From assembly GCA_003225465.1 (NCBI GenBank), contig QIAH01000348.1, positions 1 through 37,804 on the forward strand: a DNA stretch of 37,804 nucleotides. Direction: 5' to 3'. Both the position numbers and the translations under genes were made by a program. The stretch is from Acidobacteriota bacterium. Lineage in GTDB: Bacteria; Acidobacteriota; Terriglobia; Terriglobales; Acidobacteriaceae. Of this stretch, positions 9,918 to 35,486 are shown in pieces (within the stretch, counting starts at the first letter, position 1; each line of letters starts with the position of its first letter). Under the pieces are notes generated by a model. The model was not told the DNA's origin and did not search any database. It saw only the letters and a list, made by a program, of their open reading frames with translations.

Positions 9918-10193
9918 GGCTAAGTCTCGCCCCTAGAGTCTATTGTGAATCATTACTACCGTGCCAGGGTTGCCTGCGATTGCAACATTTTGAACGCCGG
10001 GCATCACAGCGAACACTTCTGTGAACCATTTATAATTCAGGGTTTACCTCAGGCATACCCGGATTTCCCTCCGGCCGGTGTTCACTTTCACAACGGTTGC
10101 CGGAACTTTCACACCCCGGCACCCGTATCTGAGAGCGTGCTGCCAGCTCGCACCGGGAATGCTCTGAGTGGGACGGCTCGACCGACTTGAGCC

Positions 10194-10214
10194 ACCGGCG
10201 AACGCCGGTTTTTC
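10194..10214 (+). terminator. Terminator- or attenuator-like hairpin in the leader of the fusion-protein gene
   Basis: A perfect 6-bp stem ACCGGC/GCCGGT with a GAAC tetraloop (10194-10209) is followed by T residues. It ends about 20 nt before the ATG at 10234, so it lies inside the expected 5' leader rather than after a gene. It could end a short leader transcript or regulate read-through. Confidence 0.45.
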
Positions 10215-10233
10215 GGGGAGCGGGCAAGGACGC

Positions 10234-11619
10234 ATGAAGACTTGGAAGAAGGTGCTGATCGGCGTGGTTGGGATCTCGGCCGCTCTGATCGTGCTCGGCG
10301 TTGCCGTACACGAGAGTAACAAGGGCGTGGTCACGGTCCAGACCGGCAAAGCTGAACGGCAGGATCTTTCTTCCATCGTGAGCGCCTCGGGCGAGATCAA
10401 GCCGAAGACTTACGTCAATATCGGCGCCAATGCCTTCGGAAAGATCACCCATCTGTATGTAAAAGAGGGCGATCGGGTCAGGAAAGGTCAATTGCTGGCG
10501 CAGCTTGAGAACGTGCAGTCGGCAGCCGATGTGGCAGCCACGAAAGCTTCGCTGGAGGCGTCGCGAACCGACGCTCTGGCAGCCGAGGCCAACTTGAATA
10601 CTGCCAAGGCGGACCTGAATCGCGCCAAGGCGGACGCGGAAAGGATGCGACTGGACTGGGACCGGGCAGAAGGTCTTTACAAAGCCGAACTGATTGCCAA
10701 GGCAGAATACGAAACTCGCAAGGCCAATTGGCAATCAGCAGAAGCCGGATTGGCTCAGGCTGATGCGCGGGTTGCGCAAGCCAAGGCGCAACTGGACTCG
10801 GCCGGGCGCCACGTCGCGCAAACGGATGCCACTCTGACGCGCGCATCGGACGTCTTGCAGAAAACCGTGTACGCCGCGCCCTACAACGGCATGATCACCA
10901 ATCTTCCAGTCCGCGAAGGAGAAACCGTCGTCATCGGCATTCAGAACGCTCCCGGCAGTACGCTGATGACGCTCGCCGACATGTCGGTCATTACGGCCGA
11001 GGTAAAGGTTGACGAAACCGATATCGTGAATGTGCGGCTCGGACAGACCGCAGAAGTAACGATTGACGCGATTCCCAAGAAAGTTTTCCACGCGACGGTG
11101 AGCGAGATCGGGAACAACGCGATTGTGCGATCGACCGGTGTCGCGACGTCGCAGCAAGCCAGCGCGAGCCAGGAAGCCAAAGATTTCAAGGTTGTGGTCA
11201 CGCTGCAGGATCCTCCTGAGGACCTGCGGCCGGGATTATCGACGACCGCAAAAATCACCACCGCAACCCGGAGCAACGTGGTCACAATTCCCATCCAGGC
11301 TTTAACGATTCGTCGCGAGGAGGATCTGGAAGCGGCGAACGCGGAAAAGGGATCAGTACAGGCAGCGGCTCCGCAGAAGGATGCGTCCAAGAATAAGAAA
11401 GAGAGTGAAGTCCAGGGCGTCTTCGTTATTCGTGACAAGAAGGCTCAATTCGTTCCCGTGCAGACCGGCATCACCGGCACCACCGATATTGAGGTGCTGA
11501 GCGGTTTGACACAAGGCGATGAAATCGTGACGGGCAGCTACAAAGTCTTGCGCACCGTGAAGCCTGGAACCAGCGTAAAAATCGATAATTCGGCAGCGAA
11601 AAAGGAAGAGAGCAACTAG
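10234..11619 (+). CDS. Periplasmic adaptor / membrane fusion protein (HlyD/MacA family)
   Basis: The 461-residue product has one N-terminal membrane anchor (about residues 5-25, VLIGVVGISAALIVLGVAV). It is followed by the first half of a barrel-sandwich lipoyl-like domain (GKITHLYVKEGDRVRKGQLLAQLEN) and a long Ala/Lys/Asp-rich coiled-coil hairpin (about residues 92-205). The second lipoyl half (YAAPYNGMITNLPVREGETV), a beta-barrel (ITAEVKVDETDI) and a membrane-proximal C-terminal domain come next. MacA-like adaptors bridge an inner-membrane ABC pump and an outer-membrane channel. AAGGA precedes the ATG. A Lys/Ser-rich insertion (EKGSVQAAAPQKDASKNKKE) interrupts the last domain. The ABC ATPase gene follows after 107 bp, but no FtsX/MacB-type permease is in the window. 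Confidence 0.92.
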   Translation: MKTWKKVLIGVVGISAALIVLGVAVHESNKGVVTVQTGKAERQDLSSIVSASGEIKPKTYVNIGANAFGKITHLYVKEGDRVRKGQLLAQLENVQSAADVAATKASLEASRTDALAAEANLNTAKADLNRAKADAERMRLDWDRAEGLYKAELIAKAEYETRKANWQSAEAGLAQADARVAQAKAQLDSAGRHVAQTDATLTRASDVLQKTVYAAPYNGMITNLPVREGETVVIGIQNAPGSTLMTLADMSVITAEVKVDETDIVNVRLGQTAEVTIDAIPKKVFHATVSEIGNNAIVRSTGVATSQQASASQEAKDFKVVVTLQDPPEDLRPGLSTTAKITTATRSNVVTIPIQALTIRREEDLEAANAEKGSVQAAAPQKDASKNKKESEVQGVFVIRDKKAQFVPVQTGITGTTDIEVLSGLTQGDEIVTGSYKVLRTVKPGTSVKIDNSAAKKEESN

Positions 11620-11726
11620 TATCGATACGCCAGACTTGACGACTAACAAAGGTTGGGGTGGCTCGTCCAATGGGGAGCCGTCCGGATGGAGAAAGTGAAG
11701 TGTCCCCAGAGGACCAGGAGAGAAAA

Positions 11727-12470
11727 ATGGCAACCGCCGAAGTAGTGAATTTCGCACAACCCACAGGGTTGGAGTCTCCGGGTCAGTGCATGATCGCGAC
11801 CGAGGATCTGTGGAAGACGTACGACATGGGCTCGGAGCAGCAGGTGCACGCCTTGCGCGGAGTCAATCTGCAGATTCGGCGGAACGAATACGTCGCGATC
11901 ATGGGACCATCCGGTTCTGGAAAATCGACGCTGATGAATCTGATCGGCTGTCTCGATTCTCCGAGCAAAGGCAATTACTGGCTGAACAATCAGCTGGTCA
12001 GCGAACTGGATGATGACGAGCTGGCGCGAATCCGGAACAAGGAAATCGGGTTCGTGTTCCAGACCTTCAATCTGCTGGCGCGGGCCACGGCTCTGCACAA
12101 TGTCGAACTGCCTTTGATCTACGCCGGGGTTCCGGCGGAGGAACGCATTGCCCGCGCGCAGGGCGCCCTCGCCGCTGTGGGCATGCAAGAGCGCATGTCG
12201 CACAAACCCAACGAGCTCTCCGGCGGACAACGGCAGCGGGTCGCGATTGCCCGCGCTCTCGTCAATAAGCCTTCGATCATCCTGGCCGACGAACCCACCG
12301 GAAACCTCGACTCGCAAACCGGCAGCGAGATCATGGCACTGTTCGACCGGCTACGGGCGGAAGGCAACACGATCGTGCTCGTCACCCACGAACATGACAT
12401 CGCCGAGTATGCTCATCGCGTCATCTTCATCAAAGACGGGGTGATCGCGGGAGACCAGAAGAAAAGATAA
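11727..12470 (+). CDS. ABC transporter ATP-binding protein (MacB/LolD type)
   Basis: The 247-residue ATPase has all nucleotide-binding motifs: Walker [10 protein letters not shown] (about residues 60-68), Q-loop FVFQTFN, signature LSGGQRQR, Walker B IILADEP, D-loop GNLDS and H-loop VTHEH. The GCLDSPSKG region and the [19 protein letters not shown] segment are typical of the LolD/MacB/FtsE-like export subfamily. GGAGAG lies 4-5 nt before the chosen ATG; the frame is open 23 codons upstream without a better site. It should power the adaptor encoded upstream together with a permease encoded elsewhere. An intrinsic terminator follows directly, so no third gene belongs to this unit. Confidence 0.93.
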
Positions 12471-14477: not shown

Positions 14478-15701
14478 CTACTGCGTGGTCGCCGGCTGCA
14501 CTCCAGCCGTGTCGGTGGGTAGCGCAGGCTTTCCAACGAAGAAGTTGTGGTCGTAGAGATTCCGATACAGGCGACCGGCAATTTCCGCCGCTTTAGGACC
14601 GAATGTGGGCCGACCGCCTTGCAAGAACACGACCGTCACGATGCGTCCAACATCGGTGTTCGCGTAGGAGGCGAACCATCCATATCGAGTACCGTCGCGC
14701 GAGCAGGTTCCGGTCTTGCCCAGCACTTGTTCTTCGGAGAAGTTGTAGCGGACACTGCGGGCCGTGCCGTACTGGACCGCTCCCGCCATGCCGTCGGAGA
14801 TCTCGGGAATCAGCGGGGCAATATCGAGGTGCCGCTTGATGCGGGGCTGGAAACTGGCAATGTCGTCAGGCGTGATCGGATGCTGCATGTAGTAAAGCGT
14901 CCCGCCGTTGGCGATCGCCGAAACCATCGCTCCCAGTTGCAGAGGCGTCATGGATACGCCCTCTCCAAAAGAGCACATCTTCCCCACGCCGCCCAGTTTC
15001 GAAGAGATTTCCTCCTCGGGATAAATGCCGAGGTGCTCGCCGTCGATGTTGTAACCCGCCAACTCGCCCAATCCAAACTCGTGCGCGTAATAGCTGACCT
15101 TGTCAAACCCGAGTTTGCGTCCCAGCGCCTCGAAATACGCATTGTTCGAGCGCGCCAGAGCGTTGGTGAGATTCATGCGGCTGCGACGGCCAAGCGTGAT
15201 CGGCGTGTCTTTGTCGATGAGGCCTTCACTCAGAGCTGCGAGCGCGACGGAGACTTTGATGGTCGAACAGGGCTGCGCGCCGCTTGACAGCGCCAGCTTC
15301 TGATTCACCATGGCGAGAACGCGGCCACTGGTTGGCTCGATCGCCACCACGGTTCCATTCATGTTGCCCAGCGCATCGATGGCGGCCTGCCGCACGACCG
15401 CATCTTCGCCCGTAACGACATCGCCTTCGGTTATGTCTTCCGCGAAAGAGCTGGTGTAGAAGCGTTCGTAGTAGCGATGCCGGCGATGGTGTACTAGCGT
15501 GCGACGACTCGCGGTCGTGACACTTCGGCTTCGCGCCAGGTGGCTCATTCGTCGCCGCGCACGCTGGCTTTCTGACACTTTTTGTGACTTCGACTTGCCG
15601 GTAAGTGCTCGAGCATTGACGTTGGCGGCATCGCCCAGCGCCGTCAATGCGAACATCACACCCGCTAAGAACAAGAGCCTGAGGAAATTATTGGTGTTCA
15701 C
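14478..15701 (-). CDS. Stand-alone penicillin-binding transpeptidase
   Basis: The 407-residue product holds the three active-site motifs of a D,D-transpeptidase: S146-T-I-K149, S185-N-N187 and K329-T-G331. The N-terminal hydrophobic segment (about residues 7-26) is a signal peptide or anchor. Residues 35-82 form a strongly basic, Arg/Ser/His-rich linker (RRTLVHHRRHRYYERF). It lacks both the glycosyltransferase domain of class A and the pedestal domain of class B PBPs, so it is essentially a bare catalytic domain, much smaller than FtsI in this window. It probably acts on peptidoglycan in the periplasm. The start codon is GTG with no good ribosome-binding site. A promoter-like pair about 100 nt upstream and a terminator mark a single-gene unit. 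Confidence 0.88.
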   Translation of the reverse strand: MNTNNFLRLLFLAGVMFALTALGDAANVNARALTGKSKSQKVSESQRARRRMSHLARSRSVTTASRRTLVHHRRHRYYERFYTSSFAEDITEGDVVTGEDAVVRQAAIDALGNMNGTVVAIEPTSGRVLAMVNQKLALSSGAQPCSTIKVSVALAALSEGLIDKDTPITLGRRSRMNLTNALARSNNAYFEALGRKLGFDKVSYYAHEFGLGELAGYNIDGEHLGIYPEEEISSKLGGVGKMCSFGEGVSMTPLQLGAMVSAIANGGTLYYMQHPITPDDIASFQPRIKRHLDIAPLIPEISDGMAGAVQYGTARSVRYNFSEEQVLGKTGTCSRDGTRYGWFASYANTDVGRIVTVVFLQGGRPTFGPKAAEIAGRLYRNLYDHNFFVGKPALPTDTAGVQPATTQ

Positions 15702-20438: not shown

Positions 20439-21773
20439 CTATGGATGATCCTGTTGATCCTGAATTTTTGCGATCGCCGCACTCGGCTTGTTCTTGGCGG
20501 GCGCATGCGGCACGATTGTTGCCTTGCCCGCCGGCTTCGCGGTCGAATTCGCGACCACGTTCCCTGTCGACTGCGGACCGATAGCCTTTGCACCGGGAGA
20601 AGGAGCAGGTTTCGCTGCTGTCTTCCTCGCCTTCGGCTTCCACCTGGTTTTCTTGTGCGCAGTTTTCTTGCTCACCGGCTTGGCAACCGGCTTCTGCGGA
20701 CCTCCATTGGGGGGAAGTGCAGCCGACGCATGCGATGGAGTTGGGAGCTTGGCCGGCGTTACGACGTGAATGAGGGCGGCCGGCTTCACACCCGCGGCGA
20801 TCGCGGCCCTGGCAGCGGCGGGCGTGATTTGCGGCGCTCGGGCCGTCCCCTGCATGTCGGGATTGAGGATGATCTGGTGCTCGTAACGGAGGTCTACCGA
20901 CTCCAGCTTCTCGAACTGCTGGCGCCATCCCCGCACGTGGGTCACGTAGATTTTGTAGCGACTCAGAAAATCGGAAGAGCCGAGGTGCACCAGAACGGCG
21001 CCCGCGGAGTCGTTAGTGAGCACCTTCACGTCATCCTGATCGGAGATATCCACTTCGCTGAGGTCTTGCGAGTAGTGCGCGCCATCGGAGTCGAGCTCGC
21101 GCACTAGCTGGTTGTAAATCCTCATGCGCGCAGCGCGGGTAGAGAGCGGCTCTCCGGGATTCATGCCGACGATCACCGGGAAGGAATATTTCTGCTTGCC
21201 GGCTCCCGGTAATTCCATCAAGGTCCCTCCGGCATCGATCAGCCAGATCCTTGAGCCAAGACGGGCAAACGCGATGGGCGTGCGCTCGTGAATTTCAACC
21301 TGCAGGCGATTGGGGACGAACCGCATCACGCTGGCCGATTCGACCCAGGGAATTTTTTCGAGCTGCGCTTTGCGTTCGGTGAGAGGGATAAAGAAGATGT
21401 TGCGGCCGATATCGCCGCCGAGCACTTCCATCACCTGGGTATGAGGCACGTTATGCGTGCCAATGACTTCGATGTCGTCGCTGGATTCAATGCGGAAGCG
21501 CCAGTTGCGCTCGCCGTAGTGATACAGGGTCGCTCCAGCCACACCGGATACGCAGGCAAGAATGAGTGCGATCGCCGACCAGGCCATCAGATGGAGAGTC
21601 TTTTTCGGGAGGGTGCCGCGCCGGGCGGAGACGCGCTTTTGCCCGCGCAGAAAAGGCGATTCTTCCTCGACGTCGAGATCCACCAGGCGCGCGTTGTCCA
21701 GCTCGCGCTCCGGTTCGCCCGGCGGCGGATACAACTCTTCCTGCAGGATGGTGGGACTGCTTTTCCGCGCCAT
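20439..21773 (-). CDS. ftsQ: Cell division protein FtsQ/DivIB with long basic tail
   Basis: FtsQ is a bitopic divisome protein that connects early and late division proteins with FtsB/FtsL. The 444-residue product has a cytoplasmic N-terminus, one membrane helix (about 62-83), a POTRA domain (about 99-166, ending PNRLQVEIHERTPIAFARL) and the FtsQ beta domain (to about 308, with WLIDAGGTLMELPG and RYKIYVTHVRGWRQQFEKLESVDLRY). After that comes an unusual tail of about 135 residues rich in Ala, Pro and Lys (KKTAHKKTRWKPKARKTAAK), absent from typical FtsQ of about 270-300 residues. In the periplasm such a tail could bind peptidoglycan or teichoic-like polyanions; this is speculation. Confidence 0.93.
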   Translation of the reverse strand: MARKSSPTILQEELYPPPGEPERELDNARLVDLDVEEESPFLRGQKRVSARRGTLPKKTLHLMAWSAIALILACVSGVAGATLYHYGERNWRFRIESSDDIEVIGTHNVPHTQVMEVLGGDIGRNIFFIPLTERKAQLEKIPWVESASVMRFVPNRLQVEIHERTPIAFARLGSRIWLIDAGGTLMELPGAGKQKYSFPVIVGMNPGEPLSTRAARMRIYNQLVRELDSDGAHYSQDLSEVDISDQDDVKVLTNDSAGAVLVHLGSSDFLSRYKIYVTHVRGWRQQFEKLESVDLRYEHQIILNPDMQGTARAPQITPAAARAAIAAGVKPAALIHVVTPAKLPTPSHASAALPPNGGPQKPVAKPVSKKTAHKKTRWKPKARKTAAKPAPSPGAKAIGPQSTGNVVANSTAKPAGKATIVPHAPAKNKPSAAIAKIQDQQDHP

Positions 21774-21959
21774 CAGACCAGGTAGTTGTCGAAGAAAATC
21801 GCTGAGCGGAAATTACTATAAATCTTTTTTGCGGATTGAAATAGACAAAATGTTGGTTCGATCGACGGAATTTTCAATCCGGCTGCAAGGTTCCGTCAAT
21901 ACAAACGCGACTGCCAGTGACAGCAGTCGCGCGCGCAGCAGGAAGCGGAGCCGTATATT

Positions 21960-22490
21960 CTAAATCGGCCCGTCCGAACCATTCACGGAATTCTGATCGA
22001 CTCCGGACACATCGGAAAGATCGATGTCCGGCAGATTCGAAAGGTCGATCTTCGGCATGTCTCCCAGGTCGACGACCACCTTGGAGAATCCTGAGCAGTC
22101 ATGCGCGCGATCGATGCCGACCATGCGAACCTTGTCCATTTTCATGTGGACCAGGTCCATCTTTCTTTGCAGTCGGGCTTGGGCGATCTGCTGGCGGGCC
22201 TGCGCCATCGCAATCTGGCGTTGCGCCTGGGCGACTCGCTGCGCCACCATCTTGCTCTGGAGCTTTTGGAAGCCACCTTCGGTCCGGCCAAGTGTCTCAG
22301 GGCTTCGCCCGAGCATCAACTCAGCCATCGTCACGGCCCGCAGACCGCGCTCGGAAGCCTGCTCGAAGACAGTCGCCGCGCGATCGGCCAGGCAATGTAC
22401 CCAGCCCAGTTGGCCATCCTGATAGGCACCGTTCAATCCCAGGGCCAGAACTCCCGCCGCCAGCCAATACCAACCTGTTTGCGACCGCAT
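21960..22490 (-). CDS. Unknown envelope protein between murC and ftsQ, 176 aa
   Basis: I do not recognise this family. The product has an N-terminal hydrophobic segment (about residues 7-22, WYWLAAGVLALGLNGA) that is a signal peptide or anchor. A Gln/Ala/Arg-rich helical stretch (about 74-121, QRVAQAQRQIAMAQARQQIA) should form a coiled coil, and an acidic tail has repeated IDLS units (KIDLSNLPDIDLSDVSGVD). Cysteines at 33 and 132 could form a disulfide. GAGGAG lies 6 nt before the ATG. It occupies the place where murB and/or ddl often sit, and is co-directional inside the dcw cluster, so a division or wall role is inferred only from context. Confidence 0.8.
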   Translation of the reverse strand: MRSQTGWYWLAAGVLALGLNGAYQDGQLGWVHCLADRAATVFEQASERGLRAVTMAELMLGRSPETLGRTEGGFQKLQSKMVAQRVAQAQRQIAMAQARQQIAQARLQRKMDLVHMKMDKVRMVGIDRAHDCSGFSKVVVDLGDMPKIDLSNLPDIDLSDVSGVDQNSVNGSDGPI

Positions 22491-22654
22491 ACGCCGCTCC
22501 TCAACCTGTAATGCTGTTTAGACGAAGGGAGTTTCAGTTTGTTAGGGAAAGATACGGGCGGGAGACAAGAAAAGTTTCGAGAAATAGGTAGGTTCGTCTC
22601 GAATTGAGACCGAGCTCGCGGTTCTTTTGTGATCAGAGACTTAGCGCCGCTGGA

Positions 22655-24058
22655 TTACGCAACCGGCTGACGAGCCTGTAGTTTTTCCAGGATGATCGGC
22701 CCCAGCTGCGAGACGCTGCCAGCGCCTAGTGTCAGAATCATGTCGCCCTCCTCGGCTTGGCTCGACACCCATTCGGCGGCTTCCGCGAACGAGGGCATGT
22801 AGCGGGCATCCTGTGCCGCGGTTTGGCGGATGTGAGCAGCCAAGGCCTCCCCGCTCACTCCCTCAATGGGCTGTTCGCTGGCGGCGTAGATGTCGAGTAT
22901 GGCGAGCGTGTCAGCGTCACGGAAAGCATCTCCGAATTCTTCCATAAGAGCCTTGGTGCGCGTGTAACGGTGCGGCTGAAAGATGACGTGAACTTTGCCG
23001 AAGCCGCACTGCCTGGCGGCGGCAAGCGTCGCTCGGATTTCGGTGGGATGGTGGCCGTAGTCGTCGACCACGCTGACGCCCGCAGCCCTGCCCCTTAACT
23101 GAAAGCGGCGATCCACGCCGCGGAAGTTCTCGAGCGCGGCACGAATGCTTTCTACTGGGAGGTCGAGGCCGATCCCTACTGCAACTGCGGCCGTCGCGTT
23201 GAGAATGTTGTGGGTACCCGGCACATGCAGCAAAAACTCGCCTAGATCCTTCCCCTCGAAGCTGACTCGAAAATGACTTAACGGACGATGTTCGCCGGGC
23301 AGCTGTTCGATTGTGCCCGGCTTGATAAGAAAATCTGAGCCTCGCCGCGTCCCGTAGGTCACCACTCGCCGTTGCACCTGAGGCAGCAACTTGCGCAGCA
23401 CCGGGTCATCGTTGCAAGCCACGATCATTCCGTAAAACGGCACCCGATCCATGAATTCCAGGAAGGTTTGCCGGACATCGCGCATGTTGCGGTAGCAGTC
23501 CATGTGCTCGCGGTCGATGTTGGTGACGACGGAGAGAATCGGCGACAGCTTCAGGAATGATCGATCGCTTTCGTCCGCTTCCGCGACCAGGTACTGCGAC
23601 TTGCCGAGACGGGCGTTTGAGCCCATGGCATCCACACGCCCACCAACGACCACGGTTGGATCAAGTCCCCCGGAGGCGAGCACGGCGGCCACCATCGACG
23701 TGGTGGTCGTCTTGCCGTGCATGCCCGCGATCGCGATGCCGTACTTCAGGCGCATTAACTCGGCAAGCATTTCGGCGCGCCGAATTACGGGAATGTGAAG
23801 CTCGCGAGCCTTGGCCACTTCGGGGTTGTCGGTGGCGATGGCGGAACTGGTGACCACCACCTCCGCGCCGATCACATTTTCGGCGGCATGGCCTTCAAAC
23901 GTGGTGGCGCCCAGGCTGGCCAGCCGCTGCGTGACCGCGGAACTCTTCAAATCCGAGCCGGAGATCCTGTAGCCCAGGTTCAGCAGTACTTCGGCGATGC
24001 CGCTCATGCCGATGCCGCCGATGCCTACGAAATGGATGCGCTGGATCTTGGCAAACAT
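22655..24058 (-). CDS. murC: UDP-N-acetylmuramate--L-alanine ligase
   Basis: MurC adds L-Ala to UDP-MurNAc using ATP, the first amino-acid step of peptidoglycan precursor synthesis in the cytoplasm. The 467-residue length is usual. The N-terminal Rossmann-type site (HFVGIGGIGMSG, residues 9-20), the ATP P-loop AGMHGKTTTT (111-120), central AEADESDRSFLKL and NIDREHMD, and the C-terminal DDYGHHPTEI and FQPHRYTRTK motifs are all present. The ATG at 24058 lacks a clear ribosome-binding site; the 143-nt gap to murG holds AGCT/TTGGC repeats that start just 5 nt upstream of the start codon. Confidence 0.97.
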   Translation of the reverse strand: MFAKIQRIHFVGIGGIGMSGIAEVLLNLGYRISGSDLKSSAVTQRLASLGATTFEGHAAENVIGAEVVVTSSAIATDNPEVAKARELHIPVIRRAEMLAELMRLKYGIAIAGMHGKTTTTSMVAAVLASGGLDPTVVVGGRVDAMGSNARLGKSQYLVAEADESDRSFLKLSPILSVVTNIDREHMDCYRNMRDVRQTFLEFMDRVPFYGMIVACNDDPVLRKLLPQVQRRVVTYGTRRGSDFLIKPGTIEQLPGEHRPLSHFRVSFEGKDLGEFLLHVPGTHNILNATAAVAVGIGLDLPVESIRAALENFRGVDRRFQLRGRAAGVSVVDDYGHHPTEIRATLAAARQCGFGKVHVIFQPHRYTRTKALMEEFGDAFRDADTLAILDIYAASEQPIEGVSGEALAAHIRQTAAQDARYMPSFAEAAEWVSSQAEEGDMILTLGAGSVSQLGPIILEKLQARQPVA

Positions 24059-35027: not shown

Positions 35028-35486
35028 TTATCGTGCCGAGATCACAGAAATTGGAGTCATGCTTGCCATAACTGGGGTGCCGCCATCGGCCGAGGCGTCC
35101 AGCCGCATCACCTGCCCGGCTTGTGGCGATTGCAGGCCTAGTTTGCGGGCCATCAGGTCGATGCGCTCCGGGTTACGCAGGGACGCATCTTCCAGATGCA
35201 GCTCCCGATTCATTTCCACTATGCTGTCGCGCTGCATTTTGAGCGACTCGATCTGATAGCCGTATTCGATGGCTTTGAAGTGCTGCCACGCATAGGTCAT
35301 GACCAGCAGGAAGAGACAACAGAGCGCGATGCTGAAATGCCGCATTTCGCGGGCCCGGCGCGGATCTTCTACCTTGACCAGGCGCGAGTTGTCGATCGTC
35401 TTCGCAAAGTAAATCTCGGGAGTTCCAACCCAGAACGATTTGCGCTGGCTGTTGGCCATGGCTTGTGCGGTCGCGGCGGCTGGCAT
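35028..35486 (-). CDS. ftsL: Cell division protein FtsL
   Basis: FtsL is a small bitopic protein that forms the FtsQLB complex and activates FtsWI. The 152-residue product has a cytoplasmic N-terminus of about 50 residues, one membrane helix (about 51-67, FSIALCCLFLLVMTYAW), a periplasmic leucine-zipper-like coiled coil (about 70-102), and the family-typical LRNPERIDLMARKLGLQSPQAGQV segment. The family is very divergent, so identification rests on this architecture plus position between rsmH and ftsI. The ATG follows the stop of the 51-aa gene directly (TAAATG); an internal Met at residue 10 is a possible alternative. Confidence 0.9.
   Translation of the reverse strand: MPAAATAQAMANSQRKSFWVGTPEIYFAKTIDNSRLVKVEDPRRAREMRHFSIALCCLFLLVMTYAWQHFKAIEYGYQIESLKMQRDSIVEMNRELHLEDASLRNPERIDLMARKLGLQSPQAGQVMRLDASADGGTPVMASMTPISVISAR

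Follow-up and report, generated by a model that had tools for sequence, protein, structure and literature searches.

Between murC and ftsQ, in the dcw cluster of one Terriglobales clade, lies a gene for a 176-aa protein of no known family, which we read, at a probability of roughly 0.55, as a self-contained transcription unit for an ECF-controlled, inner-membrane-anchored periplasmic envelope-stress protein. The reading builds on properties computed for the gene itself (its reality and clade-wide retention, its place, its promoter-like sites and terminator, the count of its cysteines and the motif at its C-terminus), and the control region of the gene holds more interest than its location.

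The window, i.e. the entire 37,804-nt stretch of DNA that was analysed (to which coordinates refer unless a locus is named), carries on its minus strand the dcw genes mraZ, mraW, ftsI, murE, murF, mraY, murD, ftsW, murG and murC, followed by ftsQ, ftsA and ftsZ. Profiles verified mraZ, mraW, ftsI, ftsW, murG, murC, ftsQ and ftsA; the remaining genes (murE, murF, mraY, murD, ftsZ) we take to be such from their position and resemblance. The 176-aa ORF has the MurC gene upstream (22655-24058; TIGR01082, 551.8 bits) and the FtsQ gene downstream (20439-21773, minus strand; POTRA_1, 8.7e-14). A preliminary description, made from the sequence of the window, had placed the protein where murB and ddl often lie, and the location is true: MurB and Ddl profiles gave no match to the protein, and both genes are found elsewhere in the genome (murB in pieces at the ends of contigs C483 and C288, ddl on C19). 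At the same position, the class-level relative L037 has a MurB-like ORF (recognised by eye). The protein features listed there are likewise all present, as an N-terminal hydrophobic helix, a Gln/Ala/Arg-rich helix, two cysteines (residues 33 and 132) and an acidic IDLS tail (Table 1).

Table 1. Coordinates in the window of the gene, its flanking signals, the predicted parts of its product and similar sites nearby
Feature	Position	Strand	Basis or remark
CDS, 176 aa, ATG start	21960..22490	(-)	ORF list, homologue searches, dN/dS
P1, ECF-type promoter-like site, AAACT-N16-CGTATC	22551..22577	(-)	P1 type in 31/62 loci
P2, ECF-type promoter-like site, TAAC-N16-CGTCTAA	22518..22544	(-)	P2 type in 57/62 loci; ends 27 nt before ATG
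Predicted membrane helix, residues 5-24, most conserved part	22419..22478	(-)	model, alignment
Long helix, residues 71-129, Gln/Ala/Arg/Met rich	22104..22280	(-)	model
Tail, residues 130-176, predicted disordered, P-x-[IV]-x-[LV] repeats, Cys132	21963..22103	(-)	model, alignment
C-terminal Gly-Pro-Ile, fits end motif [GDEA][PTSN][IVFLY]	21963..21971	(-)	motif count
Intrinsic terminator, 12-pair stem then T-rich, between gene and ftsQ	21905..21932	(-)	strict terminator pattern
Second P1-type site, before macA-like adaptor gene (10168-11619)	10103..10129	(+)	genome P1 scan
Second P2-type site, before MacB-like ABC ATPase gene (11658-12470, start more likely 11727)	11644..11670	(+)	genome P2 scan

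The ORF is real and more than a chance reading frame, because relatives turned up in 20 of the 80 genera of the order (62 of 397 genomes), dN/dS lies at 0.11-0.30 and the place is conserved in 50 of 63 loci. The profile used in this search was built from the seven members that a protein search had found (relatives in 7 of 61 genomes, its own counted), and one of the 62 genomes (G223, locus L141) was dropped as a false match, as its hit (E 8e-4) looked by eye like a HisD/HisC ORF. With the sequence around each match, 64 loci were obtained (63 after this removal), and the 50 that retain the place have murC before and ftsQ after the gene on the same strand. Eleven more loci show one neighbour of the same-strand dcw cluster (only murC in four, only ftsQ in seven), mostly near contig ends with the exception of L124 and L106, and in L011 and L127 neither murC nor ftsQ lies beside the gene. 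The synteny seen in the window thus proved to be conserved, and the spacing is variable: murC and the gene are more than 500 bp apart in 14 of the 50 loci, the gene and ftsQ in 7, and some genomes have unrelated genes, a part of them on the opposite strand, inserted on the murC side or the ftsQ side. The murC-ftsQ gap is an insertion hotspot, in which unrelated genes that differ between species stand on either strand (L093, L101, L103, L105, L107, L109, L112, L114, L117, L129).

Promoter-like sites of the ECF type recur immediately before the gene. They were counted in 62 upstream regions (L131, whose locus is cut at its start, was left out) by the patterns [TA][AG]AC-N16-CGTC[CT]A for P2 and AAC-N17-CGTAT for P1. 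The P2 pattern was present in 57 regions (0.09 expected), always with a spacer of 16 (spacers of 13-15 or 17-22 gave zero matches), and in 61 regions when up to one mismatch was allowed (about 1.1 from shuffles); elsewhere in the 599,875 bp of the loci its strict form occurs only twice. P1 was found in 31 regions (0.145 expected), its commonest position being 36 nt upstream of P2 (21 of 35 offsets). The sites thereby combine a -35 element with AAC, 16-17 nt of spacer and a -10 element CGTC or CGTA near the start codon, and CGTC with a 16 ± 1 spacer is typical of ECF promoters (PMC3426412). P2 is retained even by the relocated copies L011 and L127. A scan for a sigma-70 promoter before the gene did no better than shuffles. 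Altogether, the promoter-like sites suggest that transcription of the gene is controlled by an ECF sigma factor.

At its other end, the gene is followed by a strict-pattern terminator in 16 of 63 loci, the window included (0.65 expected; not found with this pattern in the other 47), and murC in 1 of 54. Because it has its own P1 and P2 sites upstream and a terminator behind, the best reading of the gene is a transcription unit of its own, not the head of an ftsQ operon; with regard to co-transcription with ftsQ, these sites and the terminator of the window are sequence signals against. From the placement in the dcw operon, an envelope or division factor had been suggested in the preliminary description. 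The envelope part of this suggestion fits, and the division part is not supported by the placement, considering the ECF-type promoters of the gene's own, the terminator before ftsQ (window and 15 other loci), the opposite-strand inserts between murC and the gene in some genomes, the genome that carries the gene far from the dcw cluster, the DivIC/FtsB gene (PF04977) located elsewhere in the window's genome (G000:C67) and the lack of co-variation specific to FtsQ. A role in division is possible, the positive evidence for it being the neighbourhood only.

The foremost competing explanation, to which we would give a small share of the probability, would make the product a dedicated divisome subunit: like FtsL and FtsB, a bitopic coiled-coil protein, bound to FtsQ at the septum. 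The modelled layout is indeed bitopic and helical, and in 50 of the 57 loci with ftsQ in view the gene stands directly 5' of it, on the same strand and within 500 bp. The resemblance to FtsL and FtsB (DivIC) extends to a short N-terminus, one membrane helix, a helical part and FtsQ as neighbour, but there is no sequence match (the PF04977 profile found none in the 176-aa protein or in 61 family members), and the 176-aa protein differs by its long disordered tail with a conserved C-terminus and by its signals for separate transcription. A replacement of FtsB was rejected, as a DivIC gene already exists in the genome; an FtsL candidate is also at hand, namely the ORF at the ftsL position (35028-35486, minus strand; 152 aa, one hydrophobic stretch), which had no Pfam match at E 0.001. 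Further against a divisome subunit, many close genera lack the gene, which was lost at least once and has one copy outside the dcw cluster. Co-evolution with FtsQ was not supported either: the partial correlation with FtsQ distances was 0.07, a value reached by 135 of 500 permutations; that with FtsA (0.455) is read as shared species history.

Similar sites were sought across the window's genome. The strict P2 pattern was not enriched genome-wide (8 sites, 20 in the reversed control), so that a P2 regulon is conjectural; P1 was enriched (10 sites, 3 in the control). All four P2 sites of the TAAC type lie upstream of correctly oriented genes, which are the 176-aa gene, a MacB-like ATPase gene, bshC and the gene of a secreted-looking 123-aa protein; the four TGAC-type sites fall inside genes or too near a start. 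P1 sites with targets precede the 176-aa gene, the macA-like adaptor gene, pspC and the 123-aa protein gene (which has P1 in addition to a P2 about 350 nt away), another stands at the end of an ECF sigma gene, immediately before its zf-HC2 partner, and half of the ten (five) are inside genes or have no clear target. With their sites, the macA-like and MacB-like genes (10103-12470) are situated about 10 kb from the 176-aa gene. The pspC gene (L185:1501-1869) encodes a zinc-ribbon PspC protein and has its P1-type site 25 nt before the ATG, and before bshC (L180:552-2078; bacillithiol synthesis) 31 nt separate the P2-type site from the start. As candidate P1 targets, pspC and macA suggest an envelope-stress programme, both links coming from one genome.

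Structure prediction returned an anchor helix, a long helix and a disordered tail, at low overall confidence. In the AlphaFold2 model (mean pLDDT 67.6, pTM 0.33; low overall confidence) helices span residues 5-24 (the anchor), 28-60 and 71-129 and are followed by disorder; mean pLDDT reaches 90 or more over about residues 81-120, and the tail is of low confidence. The model of a Sulfotelmatobacter-type member has the same order of elements, also at low overall confidence (pLDDT 62.9, pTM 0.24). A Foldseek search of the PDB with the predicted structure returned zero matches. Exactly two cysteines are present in 50 of 63 members (16.9 expected if these were independent, and the members are related), the first of them in different helices across clades (residue 33 versus 83 in two species of the window's genus). 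Such a conserved pair points to an oxidising compartment, where an intramolecular bond may form. Mean net charge is +0.8 before and -0.5 after the anchor helix, and this asymmetry, the predicted helix and the cysteine pair would fit a single-pass topology in the inner membrane. From these features we infer a periplasmic topology and a disulfide for the product and, from its promoters, stress control. The end motif closes 42 of 63 (related) members, where the composition of the remaining protein would predict 0.66-0.71; among the other long ORFs in these loci, 2 of 352 have it. That a free C-terminus stays conserved while the tail varies suggests that a partner, for instance a PDZ domain, recognises it.

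An ECF-type promoter and a helical, low-complexity body would also suit a membrane-tethered periplasmic chaperone, i.e. a stress-induced, helical, Gln/Arg/Met-rich protein that binds unfolded envelope proteins in the manner of Spy or CpxP, and rapid sequence change under purifying selection is in keeping with such a role. Spy and CpxP share with the product the stress-type promoter, the helical structure and the Gln/Arg/Met-rich composition, but they are soluble, and the 176-aa protein is membrane anchored and ends in a conserved motif, which chaperone activity leaves unexplained; at E 0.05, none of the Pfam families matched by 61 members was of the Spy/CpxP type. We consider this explanation about as doubtful as a divisome role.

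According to the envelope-stress reading that we prefer, the unit between murC and ftsQ would be transcribed on its own, from one or two ECF-sigma-type promoters, and transcription would usually end before ftsQ. The product would be a single-pass inner-membrane protein with its N-terminus inside and its bulk in the periplasm, with helical segments and a pair of cysteines besides its specific anchor helix, and with a flexible Val/Pro tail whose hydrophobic C-terminus is conserved. Disturbance of the envelope would lead an ECF sigma factor to raise the level of the product, which would most likely act as an envelope-stress effector. It may work as a tethered periplasmic rod whose C-terminal peptide is presented to a partner that recognises carboxylates, such as a protease of the PDZ type or a component of the wall or outer membrane; this last step is a guess, with the odds clearly against it.

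A known family could not be assigned: the best Pfam match had E 0.99, NCBIfam gave none, and searches of Pfam, NCBIfam and the sequences of solved structures yielded weak coiled-coil noise only. In 396 genomes from across the phylum, convincing matches were confined to members of the same taxonomic family, and a wider spread was rejected, since the matches outside the order were to coiled coils lacking the anchor helix, some of them with stops. No convincing paralogue was found in the window's genome (second-best match E 0.098). The claim of an undescribed, lineage-specific membrane-anchored protein was supported, the family being conserved well beyond one strain and free of homology to known housekeeping families. 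Genome G372 has two family copies, 95% identical and on different contigs (L089, L131), probably from mixed strains.

Somewhat less probable than either explanation weighed above is that the gene is an orphan with a dispensable role, its position kept by vertical descent alone and the ftsQ neighbourhood uninformative on function. The pattern of descent is vertical: on a MurC tree of 91 rows, gene presence needs 3 changes (29.5 in shuffles), which we read as a single clade that lost the gene in L020, with G005 a probable recipient by transfer whose copy lies away from the dcw cluster (row L034 was scored as without the gene, which its genome has on another contig, L139). The gap, moreover, tolerates many unrelated insertions on both sides. 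Against dispensability stand the retention of the gene in 43 of 45 genomes of the largest genus, Ca. Sulfotelmatobacter (20 of 20 of the better assemblies), the promoter kept in 57 of 62 loci, P2 even in the relocated L011, and a dN/dS of about 0.2 (0.11-0.30 in 12 of 13 pairs; the thirteenth pair, 95% identical and drawn from a single assembly, gave 0.61). Judged from its sequence, the gene is under purifying selection yet fast-changing, with a mean corrected distance of 1.71 for its product versus 0.25 for FtsA (33 shared loci). That it is not protein-coding, or that the opposite strand is the coding one (an antisense ORF of 224 aa lies on the plus strand), is very improbable in view of the dN/dS in the minus-strand frame, the promoter-like sites and terminator flanking that frame, and the lack of internal stops in any profile-search match across the 397 genomes (the sole stop of the 61-genome search, in G005, is the frame end).

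In some relatives without the family, the murC-ftsQ gap holds another small membrane protein, with a TPR-like segment. A profile of four such proteins matched in 12 of 298 genomes; all 12 were inspected, and 10, from sister genera, have the gene behind murC in the slot (L015, L018, L019, L035, L041, L193-L197). The sequence TAAC-N16-CGTCT precedes the likely start by 46-54 nt in 8 of these 10 (it was not found in L019 and L193, nor in L198 and L199, which are outside the slot), and of the 40 murC loci whose gap lacks the family, five have T[AG]AC-N16-CGTC, in four cases before TPR-like proteins. The two kinds of protein share the slot (10 of 12 loci), the promoter-like sequence, an N-terminal hydrophobic helix and a helical segment, but their profiles are unalignable (hhalign probability 0.2%), and homology is unproven. 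They are a single family diverged past recognition, or else two proteins have been served by the same promoter slot. As a long shot, less probable than any of the explanations above except that of a non-coding or opposite-strand locus, the gap in Terriglobales may be a fixed ECF-promoter slot with a continually rewritten protein (at least two unalignable membrane proteins), whose product would be a carrier of an alarm peptide: its tethered C-terminus would dock in the PDZ domain of a periplasmic protease, feeding wall-synthesis stress back into ECF signalling.

The closest known situation is that of Bacillus subtilis, where the murB-divIB-ftsA-ftsZ operon is served by an ECF promoter that lies within murG and has CGTC as its -10 box (PMC6827917) and the targets of SigM include ddl, murB and divIB (PMC11081497). 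Common to both would be an envelope-stress sigma factor acting at this gene cluster (here predicted from promoter-like sites). They differ in that the targets of SigM are known wall and division genes, whereas the acidobacterial gene is a private one of no known family, with its own terminator and in a diderm host. The evolution of the dcw cluster is treated in PMC8871954. Among the papers listed on acidobacterial dcw and ftsQ, Sulfotelmatobacter division, the divisome and ECF or envelope stress we found no description of the gene, and almost nothing on division or envelope stress in Acidobacteriota. An unannotated protein family hereby gains a location, a control region and a testable role, its promoter sequence offers a way into an ECF regulon of Acidobacteriota, and being a neighbour in the dcw cluster, as the case shows, does not imply membership of its operon. 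It is uncommon for slot and promoter to be conserved while the protein is almost unrecognisable, and this pattern may help to find other fast-evolving envelope proteins.

Two further observations concern the dcw cluster of the window. The FtsQ encoded at 20439-21773 carries a long Ala/Pro/Lys-rich C-terminal extension beyond its conserved part, and downstream of ftsZ (14478-15701, minus strand) a stand-alone transpeptidase-domain protein of 407 aa is encoded.
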